DNA of 64,000 bases, from NCBI GenBank assembly GCA_001598975.1, contig BBXU01000549.1, forward strand, positions 1 to 64,000, read 5' to 3'. Shown here one piece after another: positions 15,690 through 63,597 of the stretch (positions within the stretch are counted from its first letter, which is position 1; the number at the start of each line of letters is the position of its first letter). Made by a program: the position numbers and the translations under genes. The DNA is from Parachlorella kessleri. Its lineage: Eukaryota; Chlorophyta; Trebouxiophyceae; Chlorellales; Chlorellaceae. The notes below the pieces were generated by a model. That model was not told the DNA's origin. It ran no database searches and saw nothing but the letters and a program-made list of their open reading frames with translations.

Positions 15690-18600
15690 ATGGCCCCAAC
15701 CACTGGGGAAACTATAGGCTTGTGGGACTTTGGGGGATCTCTAGAGCCTCTGGACAGCTTGCATGATACAGGCGGCTGCAGCGGCCCTCACAATAGCTCG
15801 CTGCTGCTCAGTCAAGACACAGACCTCTTCTCGGCTGAGGGCGCAGCTGCATGGCTGGTTGACGACCTGGCAGCTGAAAGCGTTGATGGGCTTGTAGGGA
15901 GTGAGCCCTGCCGGCCCGCTGCTTGTTGCCCATCTGTCTCACCCAGCATGCTGCCAGCTGGGCTGTACCCAGGCCAGCCCCTGATCCCCTATGCTGGGAG
16001 CCTCGGCTCCGCGGCCGCCCTTCCCAACCAAGGCCTGGCAGCGGCTGCAGCGAGTGCACAGGCTGCCAGCAGGGTAGTGGAAGGCCAGCTTGGCTGCGAC
16101 TTGCTGCCTAGCGCCTCTCCCCAGCCAGTCCACAGCAGCCTTCAGCAGCCGCAGCAGGCCCTGACAGGCGCTGCACCCCGCAAACAGCGGGGCCGGGGGC
16201 GGCCTCGTGCGGATCGCTCTCGGATGACAGAGCAGCAGCTGAGAGCCATCGCTTACACGGAAGCGCATAATGAGCGCAAGGTGATGACGTGGCGGGCAGG
16301 TTGGATACCTGGTCCAGCAGCTTATGTGAGATCCCCATGTGTGCTTTCTTACCACCTGTTGATCGGTCGCCACCTCATTATAGAGTCACAATTGGACACT
16401 GTAGGCCTCAACCCTTGAATCATGGCACTACCATGTTCTTTTGGAAGGCAGGTACCAAGCGTTGGTCCTGTCAAGAGAGACCGTCTTGGGAAGAAGGGAG
16501 GCGTAGGGTGTCCGGTATAGCAGCCTATTTGAGTGTGGGAGATGCATGTCTCCACTGCCTGCAGAAGAGCCACATGCGTGACCTGGAGGAGCGGGTGGCA
16601 GATGTGACGGCGGACCTGGAGAGGGAGCGGGCGCAGCAGGCACGGTCTCACACTGCTATATTGTTGGGCACACAAAATAGTTATTGAACCCGCTGACCTG
16701 CTTGGTGGTATGGGGCCAGGCATGGTCGCTTTTGTGTGAGGGGTTTTCTGGCTGGGCTGGTACTGGAGGCATGTAGCTTAACCTAAGGCCCCTTTATCAT
16801 CAGATCAGCTGTGGTGAGGACATCCTTGGTTACCATACATGTGCGTTCTTGACCTGTTGTCTCTGTTTTTGCCTGCTGATTGGTCCCTCACCTTTGGTGC
16901 ATTCCTACGCAGGAGAACAGTCAGCAATCCGCTGCAGCATTGGAGGGGCTAATGAGGTACCAGGATGAGATGGTGACCATTCTGCAGAAGACTGGCTTGG
17001 TGGGTTTCAGCTTATAGCGAATTTCAGCATTTGGCGTCATTGCAAAGAGCAATTTGTGGGTGGGGCCAGCGAGCGTAGGCGTCAGGAATGAGTTGGAAGC
17101 AAGCTGTACGCTGGTTGGACTAGACCCCGCTGCAAGGCCCGCCCTACACAAAAAATGTGTACTTGGTTAACGGTTATCAGCATGCCGCCTACGGCGTGCC
17201 CCGTGGCATGAGCCTTCAGAGTTTTCAAAGTCGAAGTACTTCCCATCCGGCAATGGCATCCCGTGTACTGATGCTCTAAGGTTGCATTGGGTAGCACACA
17301 CCCAGTCAGGTGACCAGAGCACATGATGGCTGCACCTCCTGTGTAGGACTCTCCAAGTACTAGCCCTGCTGCCCAAGGAGCCTGCACTCCCACAACCAGC
17401 AGTTGTGCTTCATTGCGAGCAGTGCCGCCAGAGCTCCTGCCTGGGGCAGGAGTCAGCACTGTTGGTCGGGCAGAGCTTGAAGGCTTGGAGATGAATGGGC
17501 TGCCAGAGCCGCCCGGGCATGAGGAAGCCGAGGCGGGCAACGGCGGCACAGCAAGCAGCAGCAGCAGTGGCACAGACCACTGCCCCCTTTGCAGCGCCAC
17601 CGGCAGCTGCAACCATGCCAGCAGGCGCCCAGAAGCCAGCCCCAGCGCTCCTGTTGGTCGGGGTGGTGCCACAGGCCTCCTGCCTGTGAATAGCTGGGCC
17701 AACAAGCTGCCCGCAACCTGGCAATATGTTGAGGCCGTGATGCGCGGGCGTGGGGAGCCGCCGGCGCCACTTGGGCGTGGCACAGGTGCAAGCACAACAG
17801 CCACCGGTGCGGTGTGCTTGCCTCCGAGCCTGCAGCAGCACCTGCCGCAGCTGCGGCGCCTGGGGCAACAACAACCGCTTGGCTTCCAGCTCCACTGCTG
17901 GAAGGGGGGCTGCCCCGACTGGAGGACCATCTGCGCCTCCGGTAGGCGGGGGCAGCTGCTGATCTTGCATGTTGGGCGGGCATGTGCCAGACTGGGCTGA
18001 AGAGGTGTTAGAGGTGCGTGGGGCCGGCAGAGCCGGTTTGTTGTTGCGTAAGTGAGCTGTTCGTTCCTCTAATGGGACCACCCGTGTTGCATACATGGCT
18101 GGCCCTTATAGCCTTCACAAGGTGACTGGCTGCACGAGGGATACCTGGCAGGGGCGGTCAGCATCAGAACTCCACCAAAAACAACCTGTAAGCTAGAGCA
18201 GCTGGGCTACACAGGCTCTGTGTGCCTGTGCAGCTAGTCCTGCTGTGGTGGCGGAGCTGCAGAGTGCGAGCGCTGCCGACTTTGTTCAGGGCTGGCGGGA
18301 CTATGCACACGATGCCAGGTGAGCCCATACAGCGGTGCCGAGAGAAACGGTGCATGCAGCTTGAGGCTTGTGCGGTGCCTTGTTGCATTTATGATGGGTC
18401 TGCAGGTTGTCGTGCGCGGGACTTGTGCGGGACGGTGGCTTCAGTTTTAAGCAAGGTGGCTGGTGGACAAATTTAGGGTTTTTGAAGTCATGGAGTGCCA
18501 AAACTGGGTGGTGCAAGTGAGGTTTGTTGAGGGCCTCAGGTCACATGTCGGGGCCACTGTGATCCTGCTTCTTGCATTTTGCAGGGACATACTGAACGAG

Positions 18601-20389
18601 TTCCATGTCACAAAGAACGAGGCAAAGGCTGTCTCACAGCTGACACCCTACATCGCAATGCTGGCAAGTGCCAAGAGCTCTAGCAGGTGTCTGGAAGCCT
18701 GGTCTGTCTACTTGTGCACAGGCTGCGGGTGTTGTAGGGGTGCCGGTCTTCTTGTGGAAGCTTGCTGTGGTTCTAGGCCTGGAATCCTCACAGCCTTCGC
18801 AGACAGTCTCTCATCTGGCAGCGGCACGGCATGCGGAATGTCCTTTGTCGAATCAGGGACACGTTGCCATCTAGTGATAAGGGCTTGTCCTGTAGGATTC
18901 AGGGACATGTTGCATGTTAATGTTGTTGTTGTTGTTAACTTGCATCCCATACCTTGTTGGCTTGTCTTGCTTTGCTGACGGTCTTGACTGCCTTGACTTT
19001 GCAGGCAATCCTTATGAACCTTGCCATGCACCACAACCCTGGCTGCATGAAGCAGCTGTTCATGACAAGCGCAGAGAACCTGTCTGAAGACCAGCAGCGG
19101 GAGAAGTACGACGGCCTTGTGGTGCGCTGGTGCTGGCGGTACCGCTGTTGCTGTGCTGAGCAACCAAGCCAGCCATGGGGAGGAGTTTGATTCTTACGGT
19201 CTGCCGTGTGGTAGGGAGAACTGGCCTGCATTGCTGGGTTGTGCTGGTTGGTGAGGCCGAGGGTTCATGTGTTGGCTCCTGCAGGCCGCCATGGACATGG
19301 ACCCCCTGCAGCAGGAGCGATACCAAGAGCTTGCAGAGGCTTACACCACCTTTGTGCAGCGGGCGCGGCAGCATAAGGCGGAAGCACTGGCGCGCCTTGG
19401 GCAGGCAAGGACAGGCGGGCACCATAGGGCTGGACATTGCCCCTCGCTGCAGTGGGCTAAGAGCAACCCTAGCTGGCGTGCTTTCCTGAAAGCTGCCTAG
19501 AGATCATGCCTCAGGGGGTTGATGCCTTTGTACGTGACCTGCCTATGGCAAGCTGTGACTTGGCAGGAAGTTTTGGGCTTCTGCAGGCAGACTGGCATGT
19601 GCGGGCTTCTGGTCTGGTTGGGCTACCCAGCAGCTTATTATGGACCAGGTACACTGTCAGACACAGCTGTTTTTCTGGGGTTTCGAGTCACTTGGAGTGG
19701 CCCTACCCGGCGTGCATGCAGAGTGCCTTCAGTAGTTTGCCGGCTTCGGCCAGCATGGGGCGCATGGTGTCTCAGTACCTGGAAGCACTGGACGCGACGG
19801 CCGTGCTGAGTGCCTACCCAGATGCTGAGTTGATTGGACTCCTGGAGCTCATCCGCGGTCACGGCAAGGCAAGCCCTGGCGAGGGAATGCAGATGTGCAC
19901 TTAGTGGCAGCAATTAAAGAACTCCGCCCAAGCAAGGCTGAAAGCGTGAATAACAGTTTGCTTGGTTTGATGAGCCATTTGTCGATTGTTAGGCACCGAT
20001 GGCTGGGATTAAGGATCGCACGCCGGCAGGACAGGCGCACCTTCTCAGAGCGGATTGGGAAAATCCTGTCCATGGGGCATTGCAACGCCAAGGTCCCCGT
20101 AGCGGAGCACTTCCCCAGCAGTAGGTGCAATGGACATCCCCTGGAAGCAATGGGGTATGGCTAGGTGAGACGTGGTGTGCTCCATGCGGGCTCATTCATT
20201 GCAGTCCACCCTACCCCTTCATTTGCCTTTTGGAATGTGCAGATTCTGAAGCCGCTGCAAAAGGCCACGGTTGCGGCAGTTGCCTACCCCCACTTTCCCG
20301 ACCTGGTGCAAATAGTGGAGGCCTTAAGGCGGCTCCCATCACCACAACAGCAGAAGCGGCTGCTGGGATCCGAGACTGCTGCTCTCTAG
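15690..20389 (+). CDS. Array copy A: bZIP-like, AT-hook-like family protein (680 aa)
   Basis: Exons: 15690-16280, 16565-16639, 16913-16999, 17347-17941, 18234-18318, 18585-18663, 19005-19121, 19285-19404, 19722-19868, 20243-20389; all phases agree. Exon 1 has the acidic motif LWDFGGSLEPLDSL (about residues 10-23), LYPGQPL, a short Gln run, and RGRGRPRADRSRMTEQQL at about 167-184. The helix EAHNERK runs across the first intron into KSHMRDLEERVADV and RADL-type heptads, then LEGLMRYQDEMV in exon 3. Exon 4 is variable with a conserved core, SWANKLPATWQYVEAV. Exons 5-10 carry FVQGWRDYA, NEAKAVSQL, NLSEDQQREKYD, QQERYQELAEAYTTFVQ, SMGRMVSQYLEAL and KPLQKATVAAVAYPHF. Four introns start with GC instead of GT (16,640, 18,664, 19,405, 19,869), and intron 3 ends in TAG. 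A transcription-factor role is inferred from the bZIP-like and AT-hook-like parts; the C-terminal half is unassigned. Confidence 0.82.
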
Positions 20390-20893: not shown

Positions 20894-20952
20894 AGGGGGT
20901 TTGGACAGTACCAGCATGTAGTAGCCATTACGGAGCCGCAAGCGCGTCAAAT

Positions 20953-21305: not shown

Positions 21306-21755
21306 ATGGCTGCGGCCCTTGGACCAGGAGGCCTCTGGGATATGCCACTGGACAAGCCCCTGGACGGCCTGTTGGACTTGGGTACCGGCAACCAACCATA
21401 TGACGCCACCCTGCTATTTGGTGAAGACCCCGACTTCTTGTTACCTGAGTTTGCAGCAGGTGCCTCACAGGTTCTTGGCGGCCTGGCAGCTGGGGGTGCC
21501 AACCTAGAGTCAGCCGGCACCGGCAGTGTCAGCCAGCCGCAGAGCTTCACAAGCGCTATGCCCAGCTCGATGCTTACAGCGCTGTGGCCGTGTCAACCCC
21601 TTACTCCAGTTGCAGAGAGCGGGACCTTGGCAGGATTCCCTTTTGACCGTGCATTGGCACCGGCAGCAAGTATCGGCAGCGCTGAGAGGGAGCCAAGTGC
21701 TCAAGCCCTGCTCTCCTCCGTGACAGATCCACTCTTAATTCCCACCTACAGCGAT

Positions 21756-21796
<41 letters not shown>

Positions 21797-24700
21797 ACCA
21801 CTGCTACTCAGCGGAGGGAGCCAAGGAAGCGGTCCGTCCCTGCCGCAGCGGGGTAGGGGGCGGCCGCGGGTTGACCGTTCGCAAATGACAGCAAAGCAGC
21901 TGAAGGCTATCAAGAATGCACAAACGGCAAATGAGCGTAAGGTACAGAGTTGAACATATACCCGGTGGGGAAGGCGTTGAGCTCATTGTTGCAGCCCTTT
22001 GGGCTGTTCTTTGGTGGGGTAGCTCATTCCTTGCTCTGCCAGAAAGAAGGAAAGGCTTACTTGATATCTGTAGTATCGATTGCCTGAACCCCAACCTGGG
22101 CCTTCGCTTGCTTGTCTTTTGAGCATTGTGTACTTTTTTCTGGGAATCAGTAACGTCCCAGCCTTTCCTCATTTCATGTCTGCAGAAGAACCGCATGCAT
22201 GAGCTGGAGGAGCGTGTGGCTGATGTGAGGGCGGACCTGGAGAGGGAGAGGGCGCAGCAGGCAAGGCTGAGATGTCTCCAGCCCTTGCAGTGACAAGGCG
22301 GTGCCTGACCTTGGTGACTGAGCCGGGAAGCTTGCAAACGCAGCACTGCAGTTTGATCACTTCAATTAAAAGGCAATGCCAGTGTACAGCTCAACCAAAA
22401 TAGGATTCAGCAAGTGTTGGCCTGCTGGCGACAGATCTGCATTCCATCCTCCTGGCATCAAATCCTGACTGACGTGCTGGTCTTGGCGTCCACCCGGCGT
22501 GCAGGAGGACGGCCAGCGGTCAGTCGCTTTGCTGGAGCGGCTACTGTGCGTCAAGGATAGAATGGTGGAGATCCTCAGCAAGCAAGGCCAGGTGAATGCG
22601 ATGTCTAAGGCCCTGTGGGGTTTGGTCCAGTGTTGGGACTGCGAAGGAAAGAAAGCTTGAGGCTGCCTTGGGGAGCTGCTGACCAGCTAGTTGTGCTGCT
22701 GTCGTTTAGTGCAAACGCGATTTTAAGACATAGCGGCTGCTGGTTGCCATCTGTTTATGTTCATACAAGCGCAGCCATGGAGCGATGCACAGGTCTGTGC
22801 GCCTACCCTGAACATCAGCCTGGGCGCTATTTTAAAGCATACAGTTCATGCAGGCGCCCACACGCCTCTCTCATGCGGAAGCACACCTGGGGGCTGTTGT
22901 GTTGTGCAGGAGGCTAGCCCGTCATCCTCACTGGATGCTCCTCTGGATGCTCCTCTCACACCTGCTCACCGGGTCCACTCGGCCGCCAGCAGCGACAGCA
23001 GCTACGAGCTTGCGCCTGCTGCTCCGCCAGGACCTCTACCAGGACCGGCAGCTGACCCCGTGGGAAGGGTGCCGCAACAACCCGCGTTGGCAGCAGGCGG
23101 CAGCGCCCCTAGCGGTCCCCCAGGGCTGCCCTCTAGCCCAACAGAGGACAGCTGGGCTCACAAGATGCCAGCCACCTGGGAGTACGTGGACATGGTGCGG
23201 GAGTTTCAGCGGCCACCAATCTCCTGGGAGAAAGCGAGGGCGCCATCAGGGTCGGCACCAGTGCCAGCGGCTGTGTTGCGAGAGCCACAGGAGCTGAAGA
23301 AGCTCCCAGAGATCACCTACCACTACCACCTGGACAACCCGGTGACCGAGGCCTGCCTCAACCTGAGGGGCATCTGTGCCGCAGGTACCTGTCATGTCAG
23401 GTTAGGGTCTTTCTTGCTGTGACATGTCCACTGGCTGTAGCGTGGGAGGCGGTGCTGCTGCTGCGTGTTTGGGGGACCCCAGCAGGTGAGGTTTCTATCT
23501 GGCACGCTTAGCAAAGATGCTGTGGGGCTTGGCTCGTGCCTAGTAGCTGTTGCTTTGTGACTCAAGCCACCCAGAAGTGCCTTGCCGGGGGGGTGACCCG
23601 TATTGCGTGTGCCAAGTGTAACATGCGTGGTTTTGCCCTCCCTTGCAGCTAGCCCTGCCGTTGTGGCTGAGGTCCGGAGCATGAACCCTGCTGACTTCCT
23701 CCAAGGATGGCGAGACTACGCACGCGATGCCAGGTGACTCACTCGTATAAGGTATAGCTCATAGGGCATCGTTGACTAAAAGCAGTGCTTCTCGCTCCAG
23801 AAAGCCTCTCTGTCTGGGTCAGGTTAAGCAAAGGTTGAGCAAGGCTTGCACCTGCTGCCAATGTGGTGAAGGTGCAGTGGCATCAGCAACCTGCTAACGG
23901 AGAGGGTTGTTCTGGGATGCTGCAGGGATGCTTTGGAGGAGTATGACGTCACAGGGAACGAGGCCAAGGCAGTGTCCCTGCTTAGACCCCACATTGAGCG
24001 GCTGGCAAGTGCTGGTAGCCTCTGTTTGGAGGGCACTGTTGGCAGTCTCGATGCTCGGGCCATAGGGGCTTGGTGCCAGGTTTAGTTCAGCGTGGTGGCA
24101 AGCAATGCGGAGGTGTGTTGTGCACAGTGATCTCGGGCAATGAATCCCAGTATTAAAATGGAAAGACTTCTAGCATTCTCAGCAGTGTCCCAAGCCTAGT
24201 TGCAGGCAAGTGTTACCTGTACGCCACCTGTATGCCATGCTGAGAGCTGGGGTGCTCTATGCCCAAATAAAGTTGCCTTGCCGTGCTCTGCAGGCTATTC
24301 TGATGAACCTAGTGGTGCACTACAACCCAACCTGCATGAAGCAGCTGTTCCTGGCAAGCGACGAGAATCTGTCTGAAGACCAGACGAGGGAGAAGTACGA
24401 CGCAGTGGTGGTGAGTGCCTGGCGGCGTGTAGAATGGCTGGGCGCGGAATGACGCAGCGCCATCAACTGAGAAAGGCAAGACTGCATGCAAACGTGCAGG
24501 CAGCCGGCGAGTTGCGGCCCAAGATGTCTGGTGAAAGCTGTGGGCGTGTTGGGTAACCATATGCAAAGTTCAGGTCGCCCGTACCGCAGTTGTAGGTGAT
24601 GATGTCCGCGTGTAACCCAGTTACCCGAAGGCGTTGTTGAGGACCCCTGCAGGCCGCCATGGACATGACGCCCTCTCAGCAGGAGCGCTACCTGGAGCTT

Positions 24701-25246
24701 GCTGACGCCTATACCAGCTTTGTGCAGCAGGCGCGGCAGCACAAGGCAGACGCCCTCGCTCGCATTGCGCAGGTAACTAGGCAAGGCCGGCCCCCAGCGC
24801 GGTGCACTGTACATTGGTCTCTAGCTCTCTACCCCTTAGCCTGGAATGCGGGAGAGGCCTGTAAAATGTGTTCTTTTGCACCCCCTCGGACATACAGATG
24901 GACGCATATGGTTGGCTTGCCAAGCTCCTGCGTTAAACACCCAGTAACTTGAAAAGTTGCCCCTGCTATGAATGCCGTGCCCTCGCGTCTGACGGCTGCT
25001 TGCGGGTCCTGCTGTGCAGAGCGCCTTCAGCAGCCTGCCAGCATCGGCCAGCCTGGGGCGCATGGTGTCTCAGTACCTGGAGGCCGTGGAGGGCACCGCC
25101 GCGCTGAGCGCCTACCCAGATGCCGAGTTCATCGCGCTGCTGGAGCTAGTCAGCGGCATGGGGAAGGCAAGTTGCTGTGCTGCTGAGTTGAGGCTGGTAT
25201 AAGCATGCTCAGTGTGTGGCGCTACGTCCCGGGTCAGAGTGCCTCA

Positions 25247-25312
<66 letters not shown>

Positions 25313-25681
25313 GGCATTGGCTAGGCGTGTACGTCTCCACAATGGGCAGCGGTGGAGGTGTGGACGGCCTGACCACTCCTGTCCCTGGGCTGTCAACCAG
25401 ATTTTGCTGGTGGATGGTATACTTCTGGCATGCCTAGGTGGCATGGTGGTGTAGTAGGCCTGCGTTTGTCTGCTGAGACCTGTCAAGCCTTGACTTTAGA
25501 TTCAAGCCCTGTTGTGCAGATCTTCCGGCCGCTACAGAAAGCAAGGGGAGCGGCCATGGCCTACCCCCACTTCTGCGACCTGCTGGCACTGATGGATGCG
25601 ACCAGGCGGCTGCCGCCACCAGATCAGCGGCGGCAGCTGCTGGCAGATGCTAGTGGCGACATAGGGGAAAGTCTGGTATAG
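21306..25681 (+). CDS. Array copy B: bZIP-like, AT-hook-like family protein (660 aa)
   Basis: Exons: 21306-21941, 22186-22260, 22505-22591, 22910-23384, 23649-23733, 23926-24004, 24294-24410, 24653-24772, 25020-25166, 25520-25681. The protein starts MAAALGPGGLWDMPLDKPLD, keeping the LW motif. A His3-Gln10 tract (about residues 153-165) precedes RGRGRPRVDRSQMTAKQL. The helix is AQTANERK then KNRMHELEERVADV. Exon 4 keeps SWAHKMPATWEYVDMV but is otherwise unlike the other copies. Exons 5-10 keep QGWRDYARDAR, NLSEDQTREKYDAVV, PSQQERYLELADAYTSFV, SLGRMVSQYLEAV and RPLQKARGAAMAYPHF. Introns 2, 6 and 9 begin with GC (22,261, 24,005, 25,167). Intron 9 contains a pure (GCT)21 tract. Start: the first ATG in frame after a non-ATG stretch, matching the position in other copies. 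Confidence 0.83.
25249..25311 (+). repeat. (GCT)21 microsatellite in intron 9 of copy B
   Basis: This is a perfect run of 21 GCT/CTG triplets, 63 bases. It lies in an intron by comparison with all other copies, unlike the coding CAG tracts elsewhere in the window. Confidence 0.95.
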
Positions 25682-26941
25682 GTCTTGCTCAAGCTTTTGG
25701 TGTCCAGGGCACTGTGGCGTGCAGTCTGACAAGAAGGTATTGCGTCTGTTGGGTTGTGTCATGCACCGTATCGCCATTGCTCATTGCCGGCGGGAGGCGT
25801 GAACCAAGACGTGTGTGTTCCTGTGGGCCGCATGCATCAGGTGTAGGTTTTCTGAATTTGAGTTTAGCCAAGAGGCGAAATCTGGTGTGCTTCAGTTGTA
25901 TGCTTCTGACTTTGGTATGATGTCTTAAATTTAGGATCCAGCAAGGGCTTGGGTCGGCCCTTGGTCTGTTGTGCAATAGCTGTACATGATCGCCCTCTGT
26001 CCAAGTTTTGTAAGTGTTGCCTGTTTTTTTGGACCCAATTGATGTGTGGTTGATGGGGTCTGAGACAGGGTTGTCATATGATTTTTCCTGCTGGCATCAC
26101 AGCAAGACTCTTGGCCCGCTTCAGCAGTAGGTCGCATTACACCCTGATTTCCACTCTTTGACTTGGGCGTCCATCTGCTTTTACAACAGGCCTGTCACAG
26201 GAGTAGGCAGCTGCATGGGCTTGGTGGCGGCCCAGGTTGCTTCATTCCCATCACAAAGCTACCCTTAAGGTTGCTCAGCGGTAGGGACAAAGCTCAGCTA
26301 TTAGTGTATGGAGCTGGCTGACAGCCATCTCCCCAACCTTATGCTATCGTGGATGTTACTGCTGCAAGGTCTTTAATTGCCCTGTAAGCAATTCCGGTGT
26401 CGATTGTGCACTCGCACTCTCAGACAACCCCAGGGCACCCCTTGCACGCTGCTCCATCATACCCAGGTCAGTTAACCCTCAAGTTGCTGCAAGATCTGCT
26501 CAACAAAAGCAGCAGGAGTAGCCTTCAGTCTGTGCTAGGTCCAGTGAAGCCATCAGCGCAGCTTTTGGCTTCTGGCGGGAGCGGTTGCGCGTCGACGAGA
26601 TTATTTATTGAACGGGTTCATACGCCACTCCTGCAATAGGACCTTGATGGTACCCTGGTCCTCGTCGTCTGTCGTCAAATATTGTACACTAGAAAGTATA
26701 GCTAGGTGCCCTCAGTACGAGACCTTCGGACTCCACACTAGCTCGCACAAGTAAGTCAAAACTGACGAAGCTTCTACCTGAGGCACTCAATGCTCGGACG
26801 TCGGCACTTCGCGCTTGGCCTAGGTAGAGGTGTGCTGATGTTCTTTTGAGGGTCACCATGGCAGCGATATTAAGTATTGCTTCCCCCACATACAGCAGGA
26901 AGGGAGCTAAGGTTAGTAATACCTCTGGCGGGCCCTTCACA
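25682..26941. other. Spacer between copies B and C
   Basis: This is unique-looking sequence with a TGTAA at 26,009-26,013 (possible polyadenylation signal of copy B) and the copy C promoter module at its right end. No coding segment was recognised apart from a possible upstream ATG at 26,858 in frame with copy C. Confidence 0.45.
26575..26608 (+). promoter_or_regulatory. Array promoter module, copy C
   Basis: GGCGGGAGCGG (the CCCGCC element in the opposite orientation) is followed by GATTATTTAT at 26,599-26,608. Copy D has the same inverted arrangement. Confidence 0.55.
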
Positions 26942-29900
26942 ATGGTAGCTCCAACAGTCGAAGCGGACAGCCTCTGGCTTGCACTGGAAGCTGGCGACGA
27001 CCTGGAGCCCTTAGCGAGCTTGCTTGCTCCTCCAGACAACTCGCAGCGTTGCTGTCATGGCTCGCTAGTGGGTGGTGAAGATCTTAACCTCGTCCTGGCC
27101 GCGGCCACAAGTGACACGGGACAGCTTACTGATGGCCTGGCAGCTAGCAGTGAGGACTTCCTCATAGGACGTTGGCACTGCCAGCCCTCCATTAACCAAG
27201 CTAGCCCGCCAAGCAACCTGTCCACAATACTGCACCCAGGGCCTGCCCTGGGTCCAGCTGCAGGTGGCCATGTCCTGCTGGCAGGCCCTCTCAGCAATGC
27301 TTGTGCGGGTCTGGCCAGCGCAGCAGGGCTGGAGATTGCTACGCTAGAAGGAGGTGGTCAAGCGCTCCTTGGGGATACTTTCTTTGTACCTTTACAGCCC
27401 GCGCACGACAGCGCTCAGCAGCAGCAGCAGCAGCAGCAGCGATGCCACCCACTGAAACCTCAGGCGGGCGCCATCTCTGGGCCACCAAAGCGCAGGGGCC
27501 GGCCGCCAAAAGACCGCTCTCAGTTGTCAGAGAAGCAGCTGCAGGCCATCAGTATCGCGCAAGCCCACGTTGAGCGGAAGGTATGGAGCAGCGGTAGTAG
27601 GACCCGACTTGTTCAGCCTGCTTCAACTGCTTCTAACATGTCCACTCTGGCCTTGCTTTGTGATAGCTGCATCTTACCGCCCAAATAGATTCACAGGTGC
27701 GATTAGGAGCTACGTGCAGTACGGCTCCTTCAGCCTCAGTTTGCCTGTTTGCAGAAGAACCACATGCGTGACCTGGAGGAACGGATGGCTGATGTGAGGG
27801 TTGAACTGGAGAGGGAGAGAGCGCAGCAGGTACGGCGCTCCTATCCTTCCACGGCACTAAGAGTGTTCAAGTGCAGCGAGTTCAGATACAAGCTCGAAGT
27901 TGTGCGGTACCCAGCAATGACAAAGTCTGTACCTGAGGCCACAGCTGTTGTGTATATGTGTTGTTGCAGGAGAACAATGTTCAGGCAATTGCAGCATTGG
28001 AGCAGCTTCTGCACTACACTGAAGATATGGTCACAACCCTCACACAGCAGGTCAGACTGGCATCTTGTCCTGCTAAGGAATGACTAATGGAACAGGGCAG
28101 GTTCTGGTTGCGGAAAGCCATTGACCTGCCATGTTGCAAGCATTGTGACACATACTCTGCCTGCTGCGGTGTATTACTTTCCCTGCCGCGGTGGTTTCTG
28201 GCAGGTCTGGTGCCTTGGCAATAGACACATAAGTTGCTTGTCCGTTTGCCTACTTGATACCTTGGCTTCATGCACATGGGGGAAGCATGTTTCACAACAA
28301 CCTGGAACAGTTCTAACCATCCTCAGACACGTCTGGATTTGATGAATGCAGGGCGCCAGCTCATCACTGTTGAACAGCTCCGCTGATGCTCCCATTGAAC
28401 CGACCGTCTCTCGCGGCAGCAGTAGCTGCTTTGCAGCCACATGTTATGCAGTAGAACAGCCTCTGCTTACATCAAGCAGCGCCAGGCAGCAGGAGCCAGA
28501 GCAGCCCGACAGTCCGCTGGAGGCATCTTCCCCACTACCGGGCCCCAACGGCTATCATGCAGGCCAGGGTGTGCCTCCTAGCCTCGCGCTTGAGCTGACC
28601 CCCAAGTGCCGGCAGTTCGCAGCAGTGTGGGCACACAGGCTGCCAAGGACGTGGAGGTTTGTCGAGAGTTTGGTGTGCGGACAGCTGCCAAAGCTGCATG
28701 CGCATGGTGGGGGGGCAGCAGTAGTAGGCACACAGGCCACCAGCATACAAGTACAGTTTCGGCGGTGGCGAGTACAGCTGGAGAGGTGGCAGCAGATATT
28801 GCCTTCTAGCATCTCCTACCAACCCATGCCCGACATGCTAGACACGTGGGGCGAAGTTGCAGCAGGTGCGGCCACTGGCAGGCTGAGTGTGGTGCCAATG
28901 GTTGCATGGAGCAGGGTCGGTTGTATAAGCTATCAAAACCATCCACCTAGTGAACACGCAATGGGTGCCAGCCTGTAACTGTGCCAGCAAGCAAGCGCTA
29001 CCTGGCCCCAGACTACCATGGGAGTGCTGCTGGTCCAGCGTGATAGGCACATCCTCTTCCTAGTGACATGCAGTCCTTCGCATTGCATTCCAGCAGCAGG
29101 TAAGCGGAGCCCAGCTGTATGCTATGGTAGTAGGACCCCCGATCAACAAAGGCGGGAGGAGGGGCATGAGGAAAGATATCGTATAGTGTACTTGCTGCTG
29201 TGCCCCTTCAGCCAGCCCTGATGTGGTTGCTGAGCTGAAGAGCGCGGCCCCCGGTGATATGGTGCAAGGGTGGCGCGACGCGGCCCGGCGTTCCAGGTAG
29301 GGTACGAATATGTCACAGAATAGGGTGGTTGTCAATCTAGAGGACTGCAACTTGTGTACTACTCGCCCCCTCCCTAAGTAGCATTGCCTCAGAAGTACTG
29401 CACAGGTGTACCCTTCACCTTCGTTGTGTGTCATGGGGGACGCCCAAACTGTGAACATGCTGAGCGTGCGTATACGGCACGCTGTTGTCAAGGGAGTAAA
29501 TTATAGTAACTGAAAGCTGGCAGTGTGATTGCATGTGGGAGCACTTTGGACCACTGCCACTACATGCACTGGCAAATGATGTTCTACAGCCTTCCCTTGG
29601 GACAATGGCAAGGTTCCAGGAACAGTTGTCGTGTGATGCACAGGGTCCTCCCCTGCCACCCCTGGTGTTGCTGGCATCCCTCCCCTGCATTTTGGATGGC
29701 ATACACCGGCATGGCTGCTTCTGCAGGGATGCGGTGGCGGTGTATGATGTGATGAAAAGCGAAGCCTGGGCCGTGTCCCGGCTTGGTCCGATGCACCAAG
29801 AAGGGATGGTAAGCTGGTTCCGACCTTTGTATATAATGACCGGAGTCTGCCATTCGCAGAGTGGGATGCTACTCCAGTGGAGTAGGGGTATGCCAAACGC

Positions 29901-50661: not shown

Positions 50662-53600
50662 ATGAGCCCAACCAGCCTGGGCGAGAGCAGCCTCTGGGAT
50701 TTCACGGATTTCCGGGGTGAGCCCCTGGAGGGCCTACTGAACCCAAGCAGCTGCCGTCAATCCTATACTGGCTCCTTCCTGCTTGGCCAAGAACTGGACT
50801 TGCTGTCGGCTGACGCCCACGCTGCATGGCTCGTAAGCGACCCGGCAGCTGGGACTGAGCAGAAGCTGGTAGTGGATGACCTCTTCCAGCCCTGCACCTT
50901 CCCTGCCACTGCGGCAAGTATATTGCCTGCGGCACTGCATCCAGGGCAGCCCCTGGTCCCTGCACTGGGTAGCGAAGCCTTTGCGGCAGCGCCTCTCAGC
51001 AGCACCGACATGAGCCTGGCAGGCTCCGACTCGGCTAGCTTGGGGTCTGGTGTTCAAGCCATCATTTCGGCAATACCAAGCACCGCTGAGCATGCCGCAT
51101 CCCCCAGCTTCCAGCAGCAGCAGGAGCAGCCACAGCCGCCGGAAGGAGCCGTTCCTCAGCAGCCGGCCAAGGCCAAGGGACGGCCGCGTGCCGACCGCTC
51201 GCAAATGACAAGGAAGCAGATAAAGGCTATCGAGTATGCAAGGGCACATTCCGAGCGCAAGGTGGGGTGCAGAGAGTTTGCCCTACCTGGCCAGGGTTGT
51301 ACCTCCAACACTCTTTGGGTTGATATTCCGGCCCGTCCTGCACGCTCTGGGGATTGCATGGAGTTGTACAGGTTCCTGGGTAAGGGTTGGTAGCTTGTTG
51401 GGGGGTGTTCTAGAGGCCAATGCCCCTCCAGACCTCAAATGCTTGCCAACATTAAAGATCAGCCCAGCATAAGTTGAGTCTTCTGAGCCCTTGCATGTGG
51501 GCTTTCCCTGCTGTGTGCATGCAGAGGACTAACATGCGTGATCTGGAGGAGCGTGTGGCTGATGTGAGGACGGACCTGGAGAGGGAGAGGGCGCAGCAGG
51601 CAAGAGAGGATGCGGCGGGATATTTTGCGCTGCTGCCAGTGTGCAAACCCGGTATACGATTGCTTTTGTAGCCAATGCTTCTAAAATGTGGGGTCATCCT
51701 GCCTGACTGTGGCCACGGACCTATACCTGCCACAAACAATAATATTGACATCAGGCCGCTGACCTCAACTCGATAGCTAAAATCTGATGTGGGCTTTCAG
51801 AACGTCATGGGAGCAAGCAACACAGCTGCTGGCTGTTTGCTTCAGCCGGTCCTAGCTATGTGCCGTCCAATTCGTGCAGGGCGACAGCCAGCGGTCGATC
51901 GAGGTGCTGGAGCAGCTGCTGAGCTACAAGGATGAGATGGTGGCGGCCCTGAGCGAGCATGGCCAGGTTGTGAGGCCCACCCGTTGCATGTTTAGGTTGT
52001 AAAAGTACCCTTGAGCACATGCTGGAGAGGGAGTACGGCCTGGGCTCAGCGATTTGTATCCCTGCAGACCCCTGACCATGTCCACTCGCATGAACCAACC
52101 CATGCAGGGCGCGCAGGCACGCTCGGCGCTCGGCGATGCCAACTCTGCCGCCCACCAGTCCTGGCCCAGCAGCGCCGGCAGCCTTGCCATGGCCCGGCCT
52201 CCGCTGGCGGCGTTGCCAATGGCCGCAGGCAACATGGAGCTGAGACCACCGGGCCAGCTTGACCGGGGCAAGGGAACGGCCGGTGCTGCCAGCTCCACTG
52301 CCGGGTGCAGTCTCTGCAGCCGCCTCAGCAGCGCCAGCATTTATAACTATACCTGCAGCTGCGGGCGGCGCCTTGGGCATGCGGCCCTTCTGGGCCCCAC
52401 CGCACTTGCCAGCCTGCCGGAAGCCAGCTGGACACACAAGCTGCCGGCCACATGGGCCTTTGTAGAGAATGTTAGAGTGGTGCAGCTGCCCAAGCTGCTA
52501 GCAGCGGGGCCGGAGGGCAAGGTGTCGGTGTGCCTGTCGTCGAACTACCAAGTGGAGGCAAACCTTGAGCAGGCGCATGAGGGGCTGCAGCGGATTCCGG
52601 ACAGCTACTGGGATTACCTAACCATGAACGGCCTGGATGACCTCAGCGCCATAATGGTTGCAGGTGGGATACTAGTTGGGGCGCCATTTCTCATGCATGT
52701 AATGACCGAGCGGGGTGCTAGGGTTGCGCATGTAATGATGATGACCGACTGGGCGGCAGTATGCTGCTTTGCCTCATGAGCGGAAGGGCATGAGGGAGGG
52801 GCTAGTGTCGGGGACTGCCAAGGGCCAAGCATTTCTTTCTACGAGCCAAGCAGCAAACCAGCCACCAGCCAGCTAGCTAAGCAGTGGTGGTGCCTGTGAC
52901 TGACCGTGGCACATGCGGTACTGCTGTGGCTGTCTGCGTGCTCGCACAAGTCCGATGCCAGCAATGCCCCCTTGCCCCCAATGCACCTGCCATTGCCACT
53001 CCAGCAGTGCATGCACGTCTACCTGAAATATTTCGCCGTACTATGGCCCTGCAGCCAGCCCCGCTGTAGTGAATGAGGTCATGAACATGAAGTGTGACGA
53101 CCTTGTGGAGGCCTGGCGAGACTATGCCCTGGTGGCCAGGTGGGTGGCGGCTGGCTGGACGCACAGCTGTTCCTGCCGCCAGCAGGGGCCTGCGTGGGCA
53201 TCTGTGGTGGCAACGGCAGGGCAAGCTTCCAGCTGGCATATCTGCATGCTGTAGTAGATGGGTGTCTAGCAGGGGGCCTAGAATCGATCTGCCTAGTGAT
53301 TTGGGGCATGTGTGCTATTGTTTACATGTCAGGCGATGCTGCGCTTTGTACCACATGTCCCCTCTCTCCGCATGCATGTGCAGGGAGGTAGTTGCCGAGC
53401 ATGACGTCACCAAAAACGAAGCGAAGGCACTGGCCCGGCTCAATCCCCATATGGAAAGGCTGGTAAGTGCCGCTCTTGCGCTGTCATGGCCAGGAGGTTG
53501 GAGTCAGTATGCGCAGGCAATAGGATACCCTGGGTGGTCATGATATTAAGTGGCAGTGCCAAGCAAATTTTGCGAATTTTATTGCCGTGTTGCTCAAATC

Positions 53601-55140
53601 GGGACGGTCAGGAGAAACCTGTTCAAGCAGCACGTCACTTGCTACCATTTCCCAACCTGGGGCATGCATTGGACCTGCAGACGATTTTGATCAACCTCGC
53701 CATCGTCCACAACCCGGCCCTGCTAAAGCACCTCTACCTGGCAAGCGGGGACAACCTGTCTGAGGAGCAGCGGAGGGACAAGTATGACTCCATCGTGGTG
53801 AGCTGGCGCTTTGAAGACTTCTGGCAGGCTGTGCACCGGCCAGGGGTCTTCTATTGGCGGGGGCTGCTGCCGCATCGTTCATAGTTACCATCATAGTTGC
53901 ACAAGCAAAGCTGGCACCGTCCACATCGCTGGCTAGCAGAAAAGCGGGCCTTGATCTTGGCAGTAGGGGAGCTCTACCCAAACTGCGCCCAGCAACATGG
54001 CCTCGAGCGCACTGCCTTATCTGTACTTGTTCTTGTATGTAGTGCCTGAGGTGTACTGCCTGATATGTACGCCCTGCAGGCTGCCATGGACTTCACCCCC
54101 ACCCAGCAGGAGCGCTATCTGGAGATGGCCAGCAGCTATGACAGCTTTGTGCAGCAAGTGCGGCAGCACAAGGCAGAGGCGTTGGCACGCATAGGGCGGG
54201 TGAGTGAGGACTGTCTATTAATGCTGTACCGGCAGGGCCCGGTTCAGTGGTCGCATGCTCACGTATTGGATGGACTGGGGCAGGCACTGTTCCTGACCTG
54301 AGACTCAACCGACAGTCTTGTTATCCTCGAGATCTGCCAAGTGCTTGAGGGCTTATATATCGCGCCATGCATAAGGAGGCTCCTCAAGGACACACGGAAC
54401 AATTATAGGAGATGGACCGCTGTGAGTTGGTGGGGGGCGACGGCCCCCTGGGCATTGCATTGGCAGCTGTTGACCTGGCTGCTGTTGGCCCTTGATGCTG
54501 TGCAGAGCGCCGTTACCAACCCGTCAGCCTCCGCCTCCCTGCGGCAGATGGTATCTGGGTATCTGGATGCCCTGGAGGGCACGCATGCGCTGAGCCACTA
54601 CCCCGACGCGGAGTTTATTGCGCTGCTGGAGCTGATGAAAGCCACATCCAAGGTGAGCTGCTGTTGTCCGACAAGGCTCTGCCTGGTGGTTTGACTGCTC
54701 AGCAAGCCAGCAGCGTGGCCGGCGGTCACGCAGCTTGCCAGCGCCATCTAGAAAGGAACGCTTGCAGGGACAATCCTAGCATCGGAAAGTGCACAAACTG
54801 CTCCTGACAAAGTTCAGCACCACCTGAGGGGTGCCTCAAGCCCAGTCCGGTTAACTGGAAGCTTCAACCTTCTGGTCCTGATGGAACAGGGTCCAGAGAT
54901 CGTCTCTTGAAATAGAGCAACTCGTTCTTTGCATGCTGGCCGCTGGTAGGTCCCGCTATATGCTGGGTGTACAGCCTTTACAAAGTTCAGCACCACCTGC
55001 ACATGCAGGTATACAAGCCGATGCAGAAGGCCAAGGGCGCAGCAGCCGCATACCCCCAGTTCATAGATATACTGCATGTTGTGGAGGCACTCAGGCGGCT
55101 GCCACCACCGGACCAGCGGAGGCAGCTGGGAGGCTCTTGA
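50662..55140 (+). CDS. Array copy G: bZIP-like, AT-hook-like family protein (665 aa)
   Basis: Exons: 50662-51261, 51525-51599, 51880-51966, 52108-52663, 53055-53139, 53384-53462, 53681-53797, 54080-54199, 54506-54652, 55009-55140. It starts MSPTSLGESSLWDFTDFRGE. The upstream in-frame ATG-less extension from 50,491 is 5'UTR, because copy H breaks it and a splice acceptor intervenes. Exon 1 has LHPGQPLVPALGSEAFAAAP, short Gln runs, then KAKGRPRADRSQMTRKQI. The coil is ARAHSERK, RTNMRDLEERVADV, then IEVLEQLLSYKDEMV. Exon 4 has the Cys-rich SIYNYTCSCGRRLG and SWTHKLPATWAFVENV. Exon 8 is PTQQERYLEMASSYDSFVQQ. The C-terminus is KPMQKAKGAAAAYPQFIDIL, ending RRQLGGS. Intron 2 has a GC donor (51,600). 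Intron 9 carries a 153-base insertion. TGTAA at 55,494-55,498 may end the transcript. Confidence 0.84.
54807..54999 (+). mobile_element. Short insertion with 20-base target-site duplication in intron 9 of copy G
   Basis: The direct repeat ACAAAGTTCAGCACCACCTG occurs at 54,807-54,826 and 54,980-54,999, bracketing 153 bases. Copy H has a single, uninterrupted site at the matching place (about 61,485-61,530), which is the empty-site allele in a paralogue. Size and duplication length suit a SINE or other LINE-mobilised RNA copy. On the minus strand GGTTGAAGCTTCC is weakly like a tRNA B box. No poly-A tail or inverted ends were seen. Confidence 0.7.
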
Positions 55141-56982: not shown

Positions 56983-59900
56983 ATGAGCCCAACGAGCCTG
57001 GGCGAGAGCAGCCTTTGGGATTTTATGGATTACCAAGTTGAGGCCCTGGATAGATTAATGGACCCAAGCAGCTGCCGTCAGTCCTATCCTGGCTCATTGC
57101 TGCTTGGCCCGGACTTAAACCTACTGTCGGCTGACGCCCCAGCTGCATGGCTCGTAAGCGACACGGCAGCTGGCACTGAGCAGAAGCTGGTCGTGGATGA
57201 CCTCTTCCAGCCCTGCACCTTCCCTGCCACTGCGACAGGCATGGGGGCTGCAGCACTGCACCCAGGGCAGCCCCTGGTCCCTGCGCTGGGTAGCGAAGCC
57301 TTTGCGGCAGCGCCTCTTAGCAGTGCCAACCTTAGCCTGGCAGGCTCAGACTCGGCTAGCCTGGGATCCGGTGGTCAAGCCATCATTTCGCCAGTACCAA
57401 GCTCCGCTGAGCATGCCGTGTTCACCAGCTTCCAGCTGCAGCAGGAACAGCCACAGCCGCCGGCAGGAGCCGTTCCTCAGCAACCACCCAAGGCCAAAGG
57501 GCGGCCGCGTGCCGACCGCTCACAGATGACAGGGAAGCAGATCAAGGCTATTGGGTATGCACGGGCACACTTTCAACGCCAGGTAGGGTGCAGAGAGTTG
57601 CCCTGCCGCGCCAGGGTACTTGTATTGCTGCCTTGCCCAGACCGAAGAAGTCTAGGTCGAAATTCCTTGAGAGTGGCCCAGCCCCTCCTGCATGCTTGCG
57701 ATGCCATGGAGTGGAAATGGTGCCTCTGACTCCTGCCCAAGGCTTGGTACCTTTCTTTAAGTCTTCTATCCCTTGGCCCCTCCATACCTCAAGGTTGCCA
57801 ATGAAGAAATCAGCCCAGCATAAGTCCAGTCTTCTGAGAGCCCATGATTGCGGGCCTTCCGTGGTGTGTGCCTGCAGAGGACCAACATGCGTGATCTAGA
57901 GGAGCGTGTGGCTGACGTGAGGGCGGACCTGACGAGGGAGAGGGCGCAGCAGGCAAGGCTGGATGTGGCAGCAGACATTTGCGCTGCAGCCAGTGTGCAC
58001 CAATATTGCTGTACACTTGCAATCGCAGCAAGCTGTTTGGAAAGCGAAGGTGGAGTCTCCTCTCTGGTTTCAGCCAGAGACCAGTGCCTGCAGTGCGGTG
58101 GGAAGCACTTTCATGGGGTATCCTTGTCATCCATTGGGTATCAGCCCACTGACTTTCGGAAGGGCGAAAGCTGGTTCCGGGATAAAGACTATCTCGCAAG
58201 CAAGCCACGTGGCTGCTGCCTGTTTGCTCTCAGCCGGTCCAAACCCCTCACTTACCCTCCAGGTGGTGCAGGGAAACAGCCAACGGTCGATCGCGGTACG
58301 GGAGCAGCTGTTGAGCTACAAGGATGAGATGGTGGCAACCCTGGGCGGGCATGGGCAGGTGGGCTGTGAGGCCCACCCATTGCATACTATTGTTACTGGT
58401 GGCAGGTAGAGGAACAAAGAGGTGTGACCGAACAGGTCTGCCCGCAAGTATGCTCCTGGGTCGTGCCGTTCCTCTGATGTTATGTTTGACAGCTGCTGAA
58501 CACATGCCGGAGAACAGTCACTACGGTAGTAGCCGCGGCGCAATCCGTGGTATGCCAATATGTTATCCCGGACCCATGTCCGCTCATATGAATTGTTGCT
58601 TCCCTGCAGGGAGCTCAGGCGGAGTCGGCGCCCGGCGATGCCACCCCTTTCGACCACCAGTCCTGGCCCAGCAGTGCCGGCAGCCTTGCGGTGGCCCGGC
58701 CTCCCCTGGCGGCATTGCCAATGGCAGCAGGCAACGCAGAGCTCAGGCAGCCGGGCCAGCTTGACCGGGGCAAGGGGACGGCCGCTGGTGCAACCTCCAG
58801 TGCCGGGTGCAGCCTCTGCAGGCGCCTCAGCAGCGTCAGCATCTATAACTACACCTGCAGCTGCGGGCGGCGCCTTGGGCCTGGACCCCTTCCGGGCCCC
58901 ACCACGCTCGCCAGCCTGCCGGAAGCCAGCTGGACGCTCAAGCACCCGGCCACTTGGGCCTTTGTGGAGGATGTCAGGGTGGCGCAGCTGCCAAGGCTGC
59001 TGCAACCGGGGCCAGACGGCAAGGTGGCGGTGTGCCTGTCGTCGAACTACCCAGTTGATGCGCACACCGAGCAGGCGCATGAGGGGCTGCAGCGGATACC
59101 GGACAGCTACTGGGATTACCTGACCATGAACGGGCTGGACGATCTCAGCGCCTACTGTGCCGCAGGTGGGGTGCCATTGGGGCGCCAGCTCCTCATGCAT
59201 TGTTGACCGTGTGGGATGTGGAGGCTTCCGCACGTAGTACGGATGACAGACTGGGAGGCATAAGCCTCTTGTACGTACCTCAGGAGCGGAAGGGCGTGAG
59301 GGAGGGGGAAATGTGCCTGGAACAGCCAGTGGCCCACATGTCTTTCTCAGTGAGCCAAGCACTAACCCAGCCAGCTAGCTGTGGTCATTCCCTGTGACTG
59401 AGCACGGTGCATATGCTGTACCGCTGTGGACCATCTGCATGTTGGCACAATTCCAGCAAAGCCAAGGATGGCCCCTTCCCCAGCCATGCATCTCCCAATG
59501 TCAGTCTCAGCAGGGTAGGCATGCCTATCTGAAATATACCCACCTTTCTGCGCCGCTGCAGCCAGCGCTGCTGTGGTGAGTGAGGTTGTGAACATGGAGT
59601 GTCACGACATAGTGGAGGCCTGGCGAGACTATGCCCTGGTGGCCAGGTGGGTGGACGCTTGTTGCTGAACTCACTGTTGTTGTGCTGTCAGCATGGGCCT
59701 GCGTTAGCACTTGTGGTAGCGGCGCAAGCTGCCAGCTGGCACGTCTGCATGCTATGGCATGGTGGTGTCTAGCAGGGTGGGGGCTGGTGGCTGCCCCGAG
59801 ATTATTTAATGATTCGGGCATCTGTGTCTGGCCAGGGTAAGGACTGTATCGCCTACATGTCGGGCGAAGACAAGGCCCTCCCACCGCATCATGTGCAGGG

Positions 59901-61666
59901 AGGCTGTCGCCGAGCATGACGTAACCAGGAATGACGCGAAGGCGCTGGCCCGGGTCAACCCCCAGATGGAGAGGCTGGTAAGTGCTGCTCCGGCTTTGCC
60001 ATTGGCAAGAGGTTGGAAGGAGAGATTTAGCAGAGGTTGGTGGCAGCCGCCACGCTGCTGTCTGACCCCTTATTGTCACCTGCATTCCATCTGAATTACC
60101 CTGAGTTGTCATGATATCGTGCATCAGGGGCCAAAGTCTGCATACTTTGTACCAAAGGCCGCGTTGCTAAGGACAGGATGGCTTCATGGGAAGTCTGTCC
60201 AAGCAGCACGTCCCTAGCTTACCATGCCCTAACCGGGCATATACATTGGACGTGCAGACGATTTTGATCTACCTTGCCATAGTCCACAATCCAGCCCTGC
60301 TTAAGCACCTCTACCTATCAAGCGGGGACAACCTGTCAGACGAGCAGCGGAGGGACAAGTATGATGCTGTTGTGGTGAGCGCGGCTGGGCCTCACTTTGC
60401 GAGACTGTACAATGCAAGCTCAAAACCAGAACATTGCTGTAAGGCGCCAATGTTGTGAGCTGGCGCTTGGTGGACTGCATAGCAGGCTTTGCATCTTCCA
60501 GGGGCTATTTCATGTGTATGGCTGCTACCGCGCCATCCAAGTTTCACTGGTGGAGTGACCAGGATGCGCAAGCAAAGCTGGCCTGCCCGTACGCTTCCCA
60601 TGTCGCTACCGAGCAGATAGCGGACCCTAACCTCAGTAGTAGGGGAGCCTGCCTAAGCTGGGCCCGGCAGCATGGCTGCAAGTGCACTGCCTTGGTTGTA
60701 CTTGTATGTAGTGCCTGATGCGTACTGACTTACAGGTACCGCCTGCAGGCCGCCATGGACCTCACTCCCTCCCAGCAGGAGCGCTACTTGGAGATGGCCA
60801 GCAGCTACGACAGCTTTGTGCAGCAAGTGCGGCAGCACAAGGCGGAGGCGCTGGCACGCATCGGGAGGGTGAGTGAGGGCTTGCCTTTCGTGCAGCACCG
60901 GCGGGCCCGTTTCACTATCGCATGCTTGCAATTTTGATGGGCTGCCCATATCTACTCGGTAGGCTCTGTTCCCCGTGTTGAGAAGAAAGTGAGTTGACTG
61001 ACTACCATTGCGATCTTTGAGAGAGCACTTGTGGGCATGCATAGTGCCGCAGACCTAGTGCTATGCATTGAGAGGCTCCGTGGCAAGCTTGAGGCCTCAC
61101 AACGTACGAGGTACAGAAATTAGACCGCTGTGAGTGGCTTGAGGACAACAACGCGGGAGGACATCGCCTGAGGAAAAGTTGACCTGGCTGCGGCGGGCCG
61201 TTCATGCTGTGCAGAGCACCATCAACAGCCCGTCAGCCTCCGCCTCCCTGCGGCAGATGGTATCAGGGTATCTGGATGCCCTGGAGGGCACGCACGAGCT
61301 GAGCCACTACCCGGACGCGGAGTTCATCGCGCTGCTGGAGCTGATGAAAGTCACAGCCAGGGTAAGCTGCTATTGTTCCAAGGGCTACCTAGTGGCTTGG
61401 CATACCAGCAGCGTGGCCGAAATAGCTTACCAGCCCGGTGCAGTGTGGAACGCTTGTAGGGGGCACTCCTAGTGTCGGGATGTGCACAAACCTCTGCTGA
61501 CGAAAATATTTTGCGCTACATGCACATGCAGGTCTACAAGCCGCTGCAGAAGGCCAGGGGTGCAGCAGCCGCATACCCCCAGTTCATAGATATACTGCAC
61601 GTTGTGGAGGCACTCAGGCGGCTGCCGTCACCGGACCAGCGGAGGCGGCAGCTGGGAGCGGCGTGA
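56983..61666 (+). CDS. Array copy H: bZIP-like, AT-hook-like family protein (666 aa)
   Basis: Exons: 56983-57582, 57878-57952, 58272-58358, 58610-59165, 59562-59646, 59899-59977, 60258-60374, 60749-60868, 61215-61361, 61532-61666. It is the closest relative of copy G throughout: MSPTSLGESSLWDFMDYQVE, LHPGQPLVPALGSEAFAAAP, KAKGRPRADRSQMTGKQI. The end of the basic helix has changed to ARAHFQRQ, losing the ERK found in most copies. The coil continues RTNMRDLEERVADV and then IAVREQLLSYKDEMV, with an Arg in place of Leu at a heptad position. Exon 4 keeps the Cys-rich SIYNYTCSCGRRLG and has SWTLKHPATWAFVEDV. The C-terminus is KPLQKARGAAAAYPQFIDIL, ending RRRQLGAA. Intron 2 has a GC donor (57,953). 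Reading frames are intact, but the changed helix may weaken whatever it binds. Confidence 0.84.
60041..60100 (+). repeat. Dispersed repeat R2, 3' part, in intron 6 of copy H
   Basis: GCAGCCGCCACGCTGCTGTC, TGACCCCTTATTGTCACCTG and CATTCCATCTGAATT. It lacks the TTGACGCAG start and is otherwise close to the unit at 62,541. Confidence 0.6.
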
Positions 61667-62612: not shown

Positions 62613-62841
62613 TCTTTGGCGGCTGGTAGCCCGTCACCAGCCGTCAGGCCCCGACCCTCAAGGCTTGCAGCCAACCCCATTTGTACTGTTACCTCTCTAT
62701 CACGCAAAGGCACCACTTGTAATTCTTGCTCTTCAACAGCAAAAGATTTGGTGGAAGGTCAAGTACCCGCAGCACCATGCCATGAAGGCCTCCCTCGCGC
62801 CCAACTCGCGCTTGCGGGTCAAGGCCATGAGTCATGGCCTG

Positions 62842-62851
62842 GATTATTTAT
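62842..62851 (+). promoter_or_regulatory. Array promoter element, copy I
   Basis: An exact GATTATTTAT, but only about 110 bases before the start codon and without a clear CCCGCC directly before it. The 5' leader may be shorter here, or the true start may differ. Confidence 0.45.
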
Positions 62852-62952
62852 CGAGCAGGACGGATTGCTCTATCAAATATCATATGCAAGTACCGCTCAG
62901 TTTATTGCAAGGACTTAGAAAGAAGGTCACAGGTGCCGCGTTGTCGCCGCTC

Positions 62953-63597
62953 ATGACGCTGGCGGAGGGCAGGCTTTGGGAGGAGCACGAGTTTGGCTTA
63001 CTGGAGCCCGTAGAAAGCTTGTTTGATGTGGACGGGTTCCTACAACCCTACGAGAGCTCCCTGCTACTGGAGCGGGACCTGCTGCCGGCCGATGGCACAG
63101 CTAGTTGGCTAGTTGGCAACTTGGTAGCCGATGACGACGACAGGCTGCAGTGGGGTGGCACTTGTCAGCCCCCCAATGGCTCCTCAGCCTTGCCAAGTCT
63201 GGTGCCTGGACCCCTGCCGGAAGCAGCGCAGCCAATCGCTCTACCTCCTGGGTGGGGCAGCGCCGCGCCGGCGGCAACCGCAGCTAGCAGCGACTGGGGT
63301 AACTTGACAGTACTGCCAAGTTGTGGCAGATCCGATAGCGAGGGAAACAACCAAGCTCTGCTTGCCCCTTCGCTGAGTGCACTGCTGACCCCCACCTATA
63401 CCAGCCTTCAGCAGCAGCAACCGGAGGCAGTAGAGGGGAAGGAGCAGCCGGCGCCCCATTCAATGCAGGCGCTGCAAGAGGTGCAGCAGGGACAGCAGCA
63501 GCCGAGACGAAGGGGGCGGCCGCGCGCCGACCGCTCGCATATGACGCGTCAGCAGCTGAGGGCCATCGGGCACGCACAGGCGCACGCTCAGCGCAAG
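62953..63597 (+). CDS. Array copy I: first exon only (215 codons), rest outside the window or missing
   Basis: It starts MTLAEGRLWEEHEFGLLEPV and continues ESLFDVDGFLQPYESSLLLE, keeping the LW, LEPVESL and LQPYESSLL motifs best seen in copies A, E and F. Gln-rich stretches precede RRRGRPRADRSHMTRQQL and the helix AIGHAQAHAQRK, ending at a normal GTGCGG donor. The reading frame is open upstream to 62,593, but the family start is at 62,953. Exon 2 is not found in the 403 bases to the window edge, although it lies 175-437 bases downstream in the other copies. An R1 repeat sits in that stretch. Confidence 0.75.

Follow-up and report, generated by a model that had tools for sequence, protein, structure and literature searches.

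We describe here a tandem array of ten related genes (A–J) in the green alga Parachlorella kessleri, lying head-to-tail and all on the plus strand between positions 15,690 and 74,507 of contig BBXU01000549.1 (C331; 83,306 bases, within a 50.9-Mb assembly). The window, that is the whole stretch of DNA analysed, comprises bases 1–64,000 of this contig; its edge cuts the array, and most of copy I and the whole of copy J lie beyond it. An eleventh copy (K) is present on contig C374 (30,708–35,669, minus strand). The array is probably a lineage-specific tandem expansion (ten copies here and one or more elsewhere) from a basic leucine zipper (bZIP) gene of green algae, whose products would be bZIP-derived regulators with an altered DNA contact, a function that we infer from sequence. 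All data are from one genome.

The DNA-reading residues of ordinary bZIP basic regions, N-x7-R, are missing throughout the array. The Asn position is Ala in 10/10 copies, and the Arg position is occupied by N, N, V, L, H, S, S, F, A and L, such that none of the ten keeps either residue of an N-x7-R/K motif; the same is true of K. The zipper and the Arg and Lys residues adjoining it are retained, as are a C-terminus of about 230 amino acids (aa) and, upstream in all ten copies, an (R/K)GRP core resembling an AT-hook. Exon 2 encodes hydrophobic heptads with an L-V-V-L spacing. An AlphaFold model of copy F contains one long helix (residues 187–258) running from the basic region through the zipper, with block pLDDT (predicted local distance difference test) values of 67–92, and low or middling confidence elsewhere. 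In this one modelled copy there is thus a predicted continuous basic-region/zipper helix with hydrophobic heptads, as in a bZIP protein, through which dimerisation is putative.

Genes sharing this organisation but retaining the ordinary basic region are found elsewhere in the same genome. A search with a C-terminal query identified further loci at C295 (E 4.9e-9), C1087 (2.2e-5) and C177 (0.001); the search gives a lower bound, and C1087 and C177, one instance each, are known from exon peptides. The basic regions of C1087 (EQNRIMQARYRQRQK, which spans an intron) and C177 (REHNRMMQAQRRQQHK) both have N-x7-R, and in each the zipper is followed by segments corresponding to exons 5, 6, 7, 8, 9 and 10, in the same order as in the array and with introns at all five junctions from 5/6 to 9/10. 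Both have an exon 8 of 120 nucleotides (nt), and exon 9 measures 147 and 150 nt. Because these genes share introns and exon lengths with the array, the constancy of exons 8 and 9 is, on gene structure, an inherited bZIP feature and not the mark of a novel architecture, and the array is, by the same comparison, homologous to bZIP genes carrying N-x7-R. The suggestion in the initial annotation that no family with such an architecture is known is not supported. The intron after exon 2 is restricted to the array and K, exons 2 and 3 forming one frame in C1087, C177 and a third locus, C832; C1087 has an extra intron within its basic region. In a tree the array copies group with K in a single clade on a long branch (support 100), K being nested inside (support 71).

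The kinship extends to Auxenochlorella. C832 matches an Auxenochlorella 'BZIP domain-containing protein' with 47% identity over 97% of a 163-aa query, and a profile of nine copies (H excluded) matches the Auxenochlorella bZIP protein with a probability of 96.8 (E 2.6e-10, 39% identity over 85 columns), covering the RGR/bZIP/zipper part. As a separate observation, C295 contains exon 8-10-like segments at 29190-30089 (minus strand), with one stop codon inside the match that may reflect intron read-through.

Several results count against a bZIP-derived expansion with an altered DNA contact, which is putative, and the initial description of the genes as bZIP-like and AT-hook-like is upheld as to bZIP kinship and a single AT-hook-like motif, but not at Pfam thresholds. 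The Pfam bZIP model gave no match to whole copies B and F, to segments of C and F, or to nine of the ten copies from RGRP onward (H excluded; 25 of 27 families listed). A genome search with PF00170 listed seven other loci and no array copy; the bZIP part of C1087 itself scores 15.4 bits, under the cut-off of 27.6, and that of C177 is unmatched. The AT_hook model is below its cut-off in copy C (11.8 vs 17.4 bits) and does not match copy F. The structure prediction yielded the long helix of copy F, but its C-terminal part is poor (low confidence), and the fold there was not recognised. Using the profile and the dispersed paralogues, the C-terminal part aligns with the Auxenochlorella protein in order but weakly (E 0.0075). 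Support for expression comes from the contigs behind one protein cluster, P0007, described below.

Exons were modelled for each copy from cross-copy conservation and splice sites, together with self-comparison and exon-by-exon tblastn, all of which bear out the single-strand, head-to-tail arrangement originally described; the count of at least nine copies becomes ten, with K in addition. Blastn matches between copies in exon 8 have E values from 3e-13 to 1e-44 (150 of 169 rows listed), far beyond chance. Neighbouring coding regions are 699–2,327 bases apart, and the frames are open in 10/10 copies, encoding 645–695 aa. The ten-exon plan is present in nine copies and fails in F, in which exons 3 and 4 are fused to leave nine exons. 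Exons 2 (75 nt), 5 (85 nt) and 8 (120 nt) are invariant in all ten, and exon 9 is 147 nt in nine and 153 nt in J, much as first noted, whereas exon 1 (591–816 nt) and exon 4 (388–595 nt, F excluded) are free in length. The stop codon of C lies about ten residues ahead of that of D, and where translation starts in C and in I is uncertain, as public models begin further downstream (26942 for C, 62953 for I). GC-AG introns make up about 1% of introns in eukaryotes; the array proportion is far higher, at 13 of 89 modelled introns (seen at introns 2, 6, 8 and 9), and the public model of copy A uses all four GC junctions of that copy identically.

The best matches in protein searches (8000 candidates scored in two of three) are eight P. 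kessleri hypothetical proteins, N2152v2_010198–010201 and 010204–010207, which pair with A–D and F–I in the same order; J had no match in these searches. We infer that the eight genes lie on one contig (the longest is 1,140,330 bases for each). Since they occur in a second assembly in the same order, this argues against an assembly artefact, one of the circumstances originally named as refuting the proposal, and either an artefact or a set of pseudogenes is unlikely. Identity is complete for A (594 aa) and F (645 aa), and the differences for B, C, D, G, H and I are mainly inserted or missing segments that correspond to gene-model choices. For copy E, 650 of 651 residues of the spliced product are those of P0007 (651 aa), whose longest contig is 2,169 bases; this contig looks like a transcript, being too short for the introns of the 4.8-kb gene yet encoding its product. 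Nine exons of K were checked (exon 4 aside) and all are open, with exons 2, 3, 5, 6, 7, 8 and 9 of array-typical lengths. Two short ENA contigs encode a relative of copy B exon 4 (58% identity), so the family is probably present in another Parachlorella-like genome too.

Mean pairwise aa identity (45 pairs; 36 for exons 3 and 4) is 0.40 for exon 1 and 0.27 for exon 4, compared with 0.48–0.78 for the other exons, in agreement with the early view that exons 1 and 4 diverge freely. The ratio of nonsynonymous to synonymous rates (dN/dS) was computed for two close pairs, G/H and C/D, and is 0.28 and 0.36 gene-wide, 0.20 and 0.22 for exons 5–10, and 0.32 and 0.45 for exons 1 and 4; no exon exceeds 1 in either pair. 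These pairs are under purifying selection, stronger C-terminally than in exons 1 and 4, and the proposed contrast between a constrained core and fast-changing exons is borne out in them. Of the birth-and-death process invoked to explain it, the births are evident, and there is no dead copy among the ten (or in the nine exons of K).

Exon 2 shows the opposite, being alike throughout the array. We calculated a silent-site ratio, in which codon differences at identical amino acids are divided by the rate expected at saturation, leaving out G/H and C/D. Across the array the ratio is 0.31–0.32 for exon 2 and 0.53–0.95 for other exons, and of 513 windows of 25 codons the one with the lowest value falls on exon 2. 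Against K, exon 2 is saturated (1.01); in other exons the distance of K from the array resembles that between array copies, to within 0.08 in aa identity and 0.20 in silent ratio. Past the splice-site consensus, the flanking introns show no more identity than chance would give (0.27 from -40 to -11, 0.25 from +9 to +40). The exon 2 differences are star-like with J central, and a DNA search with exon 2 found at least eight places, all in the array, a search that missed C and D and so is not exhaustive. These data suggest that the DNA of exon 2 is being either homogenised or kept from changing, a pattern that to our reading is new here: homogenisation across the array, and saturation against K.

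Two mechanisms account for this pattern: gene conversion limited to the exon, and a splicing constraint acting on its nucleotides. Under the latter, which has a substantial chance of being correct if somewhat short of an even one, the exons would be alike because weak GC-AG or poor GT donors need exonic splicing signals; the phase-symmetric exon 2 (75 nt, phase 0) is then perhaps a regulated cassette whose removal would take out part of the zipper. The donor after exon 2 is GC in eight of ten copies and gtacgg or gtacgc in the other two, and K has both gtatgt and a divergent exon 2; the chance identity of the flanking introns and the lack of this intron in C832, C1087 and C177 also agree with constraint. 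However, introns beside a regulated exon are expected to be conserved as well, exon 2 is present in 9/9 database proteins, and C and D, despite being a close pair, differ at 18 of 75 positions in exon 2, with a dS of 0.66 (25 codons) against a gene average of 0.49, which conversion of one copy fits better. Exon 2 distances still correlate to some extent with whole-protein distances (Mantel r 0.48, P 0.003), as do those of exon 8 (r 0.41), a correlation that complete homogenisation would have erased. We lean towards conversion on C/D and K, and towards constraint on the donors and the residual correlation. A bolder proposal, which we consider improbable, is that array-confined, exon-sized concerted evolution of this basic-to-zipper hinge keeps one dimerisation code while other exons diverge, that the array members thereby form a network of mutually compatible dimers touching DNA by AT-hook and not by bZIP contacts, and that K lost the code once outside the array.

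Within the preferred interpretation, a bZIP-derived expansion, the products would act in the nucleus as regulators, with the coiled coil as their dimer interface. Contact with DNA, if any, would be made by the AT-hook-like (R/K)GRP motif together with those basic residues that are left, and not by sequence-specific bZIP contacts. Exon 1 has W/L/D/E-rich segments at its start and Gln tracts at its end, and these acidic, Gln-rich segments appear activation-domain-like and may supply activation. The variable exons would have diversified while exon 2 was kept alike by exon-sized conversion or nucleotide constraint, and the proteins may act as regulators or as partners titrating canonical bZIPs. 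In its strict form, titration would make the copies dominant-negative or adaptor partners that dimerise with canonical bZIPs such as C1087 and C177 and remove them from DNA, like bZIP inhibitors lacking a basic region. A coiled-coil helix (predicted in F) in proteins whose DNA-reading residues are gone in 10/10 copies, in a genome with N-x7-R paralogues that have the same C-terminal domain, is consistent with this, but the conserved (R/K)GRP and zipper-adjoining Arg and Lys residues are needless for a pure sequestering protein, and we regard it as possible but rather unlikely. That the copies are functionless, decaying duplicates retained by chance is very improbable, for in spite of the long branch toward the N-x7-R paralogues and the lost key bZIP residues, all ten copies and the nine checked exons of K are open, splice sites are kept, dN/dS is well below 1 in both pairs, and there is one transcript-like contig.

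In TGA bZIP proteins of plants the bZIP precedes a helical C-terminal domain, DOG1, and their likeness to the array is a lead only; DOG1 (PF14144) had no match in the genome in a search that matched no control either, and is absent from the Pfam families listed and from the fold lists obtained with the low-confidence model. Closer comparisons are with C1087 and C177, which share the RGR-type motif, bZIP helix, exon 5–10 domain order and five C-terminal introns but differ in having N-x7-R and a single exon for exons 2 and 3, and with C832 and the Auxenochlorella protothecoides protein (P0012, 703 aa). The latter two share the RGR motif, zipper, long middle and C-terminal helices in order, and C832 has the array position of the exon 1/2 intron; unlike the array they keep the Arg of N-x7-R (not the Asn), and have a different middle region and a weak C-terminal match. 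The 'novel bZIP' classes of Phytophthora sojae are likewise described as a lineage-specific, partly tandem expansion in which the conserved Asn is substituted (PMC4046829). These are oomycete genes and independent, and the array lacks both Asn and Arg and has (R/K)GRP and the C-terminal domain. Since the P. sojae expansion is known, the kind is known and the array variant is new.

Table 1. Array genes and exon 2 positions within the window.
Feature	Position	Strand	Description
Copy A	15690..20389	+	10 exons, 680 aa; matches N2152v2_010198
Copy A exons	15690-16280, 16565-16639, 16913-16999, 17347-17941, 18234-18318, 18585-18663, 19005-19121, 19285-19404, 19722-19868, 20243-20389	+	
Copy B	21306..25681	+	10 exons, 660 aa; matches N2152v2_010199
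Copy C	26858..31217	+	10 exons, 683 aa, early stop in exon 10; matches N2152v2_010200
Copy D	31917..36370	+	10 exons, 670 aa; matches N2152v2_010201
Copy E	38698..43547	+	10 exons, 651 aa; 99.8% identical to P0007
Copy F	44829..49048	+	9 exons (3 and 4 fused), 645 aa; N2152v2_010204, 100% identical
Copy G	50662..55140	+	10 exons, 665 aa; matches N2152v2_010205
Copy H	56983..61666	+	10 exons, 666 aa; matches N2152v2_010206
Copy I exon 1	62782..63597	+	start uncertain; remaining exons at C331 64165-67988, outside the window; matches N2152v2_010207
Exon 2 of A	16565..16639	+	75-nt exon, apparently homogenised
Exon 2 of B	22186..22260	+	
Exon 2 of C	27755..27829	+	
Exon 2 of D	32786..32860	+	most divergent exon 2
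Exon 2 of E	39737..39811	+	
Exon 2 of F	45643..45717	+	
Exon 2 of G	51525..51599	+	
Exon 2 of H	57878..57952	+	

Three other features of the window were observed. Intron 9 of copy B contains 21 perfect GCT units (25249-25311); no other trinucleotide run listed in the window is as long. A dispersed short repeat of about 55–100 bases, in both orientations, sits between array genes and in an intron (36540-36770, 44072-44235, 55682-55962 and 63735-63842); it is at a guess like a miniature inverted-repeat transposable element, and a genome search with the 36540-36770 stretch gave at least 47 matches (40 of 1345 candidates scored). Outside the array, an open frame at 1768-2262 on the minus strand encodes a GTPase P-loop (GDSGVGKTS) and is possibly an exon of a Miro-like GTPase.

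To our knowledge, apart from the zinc-finger and oomycete bZIP expansions, genes resembling transcription factors but altered in the surface that contacts DNA are seldom arranged in tandem arrays. Gene knock-out with CRISPR/Cas9 has been published for P. kessleri (PMC10916037). Ten copies, one unlinked copy and N-x7-R paralogues form a compact natural series in one genome, which makes both the loss of bZIP DNA reading and the homogenisation of a single 75-nt exon directly testable.

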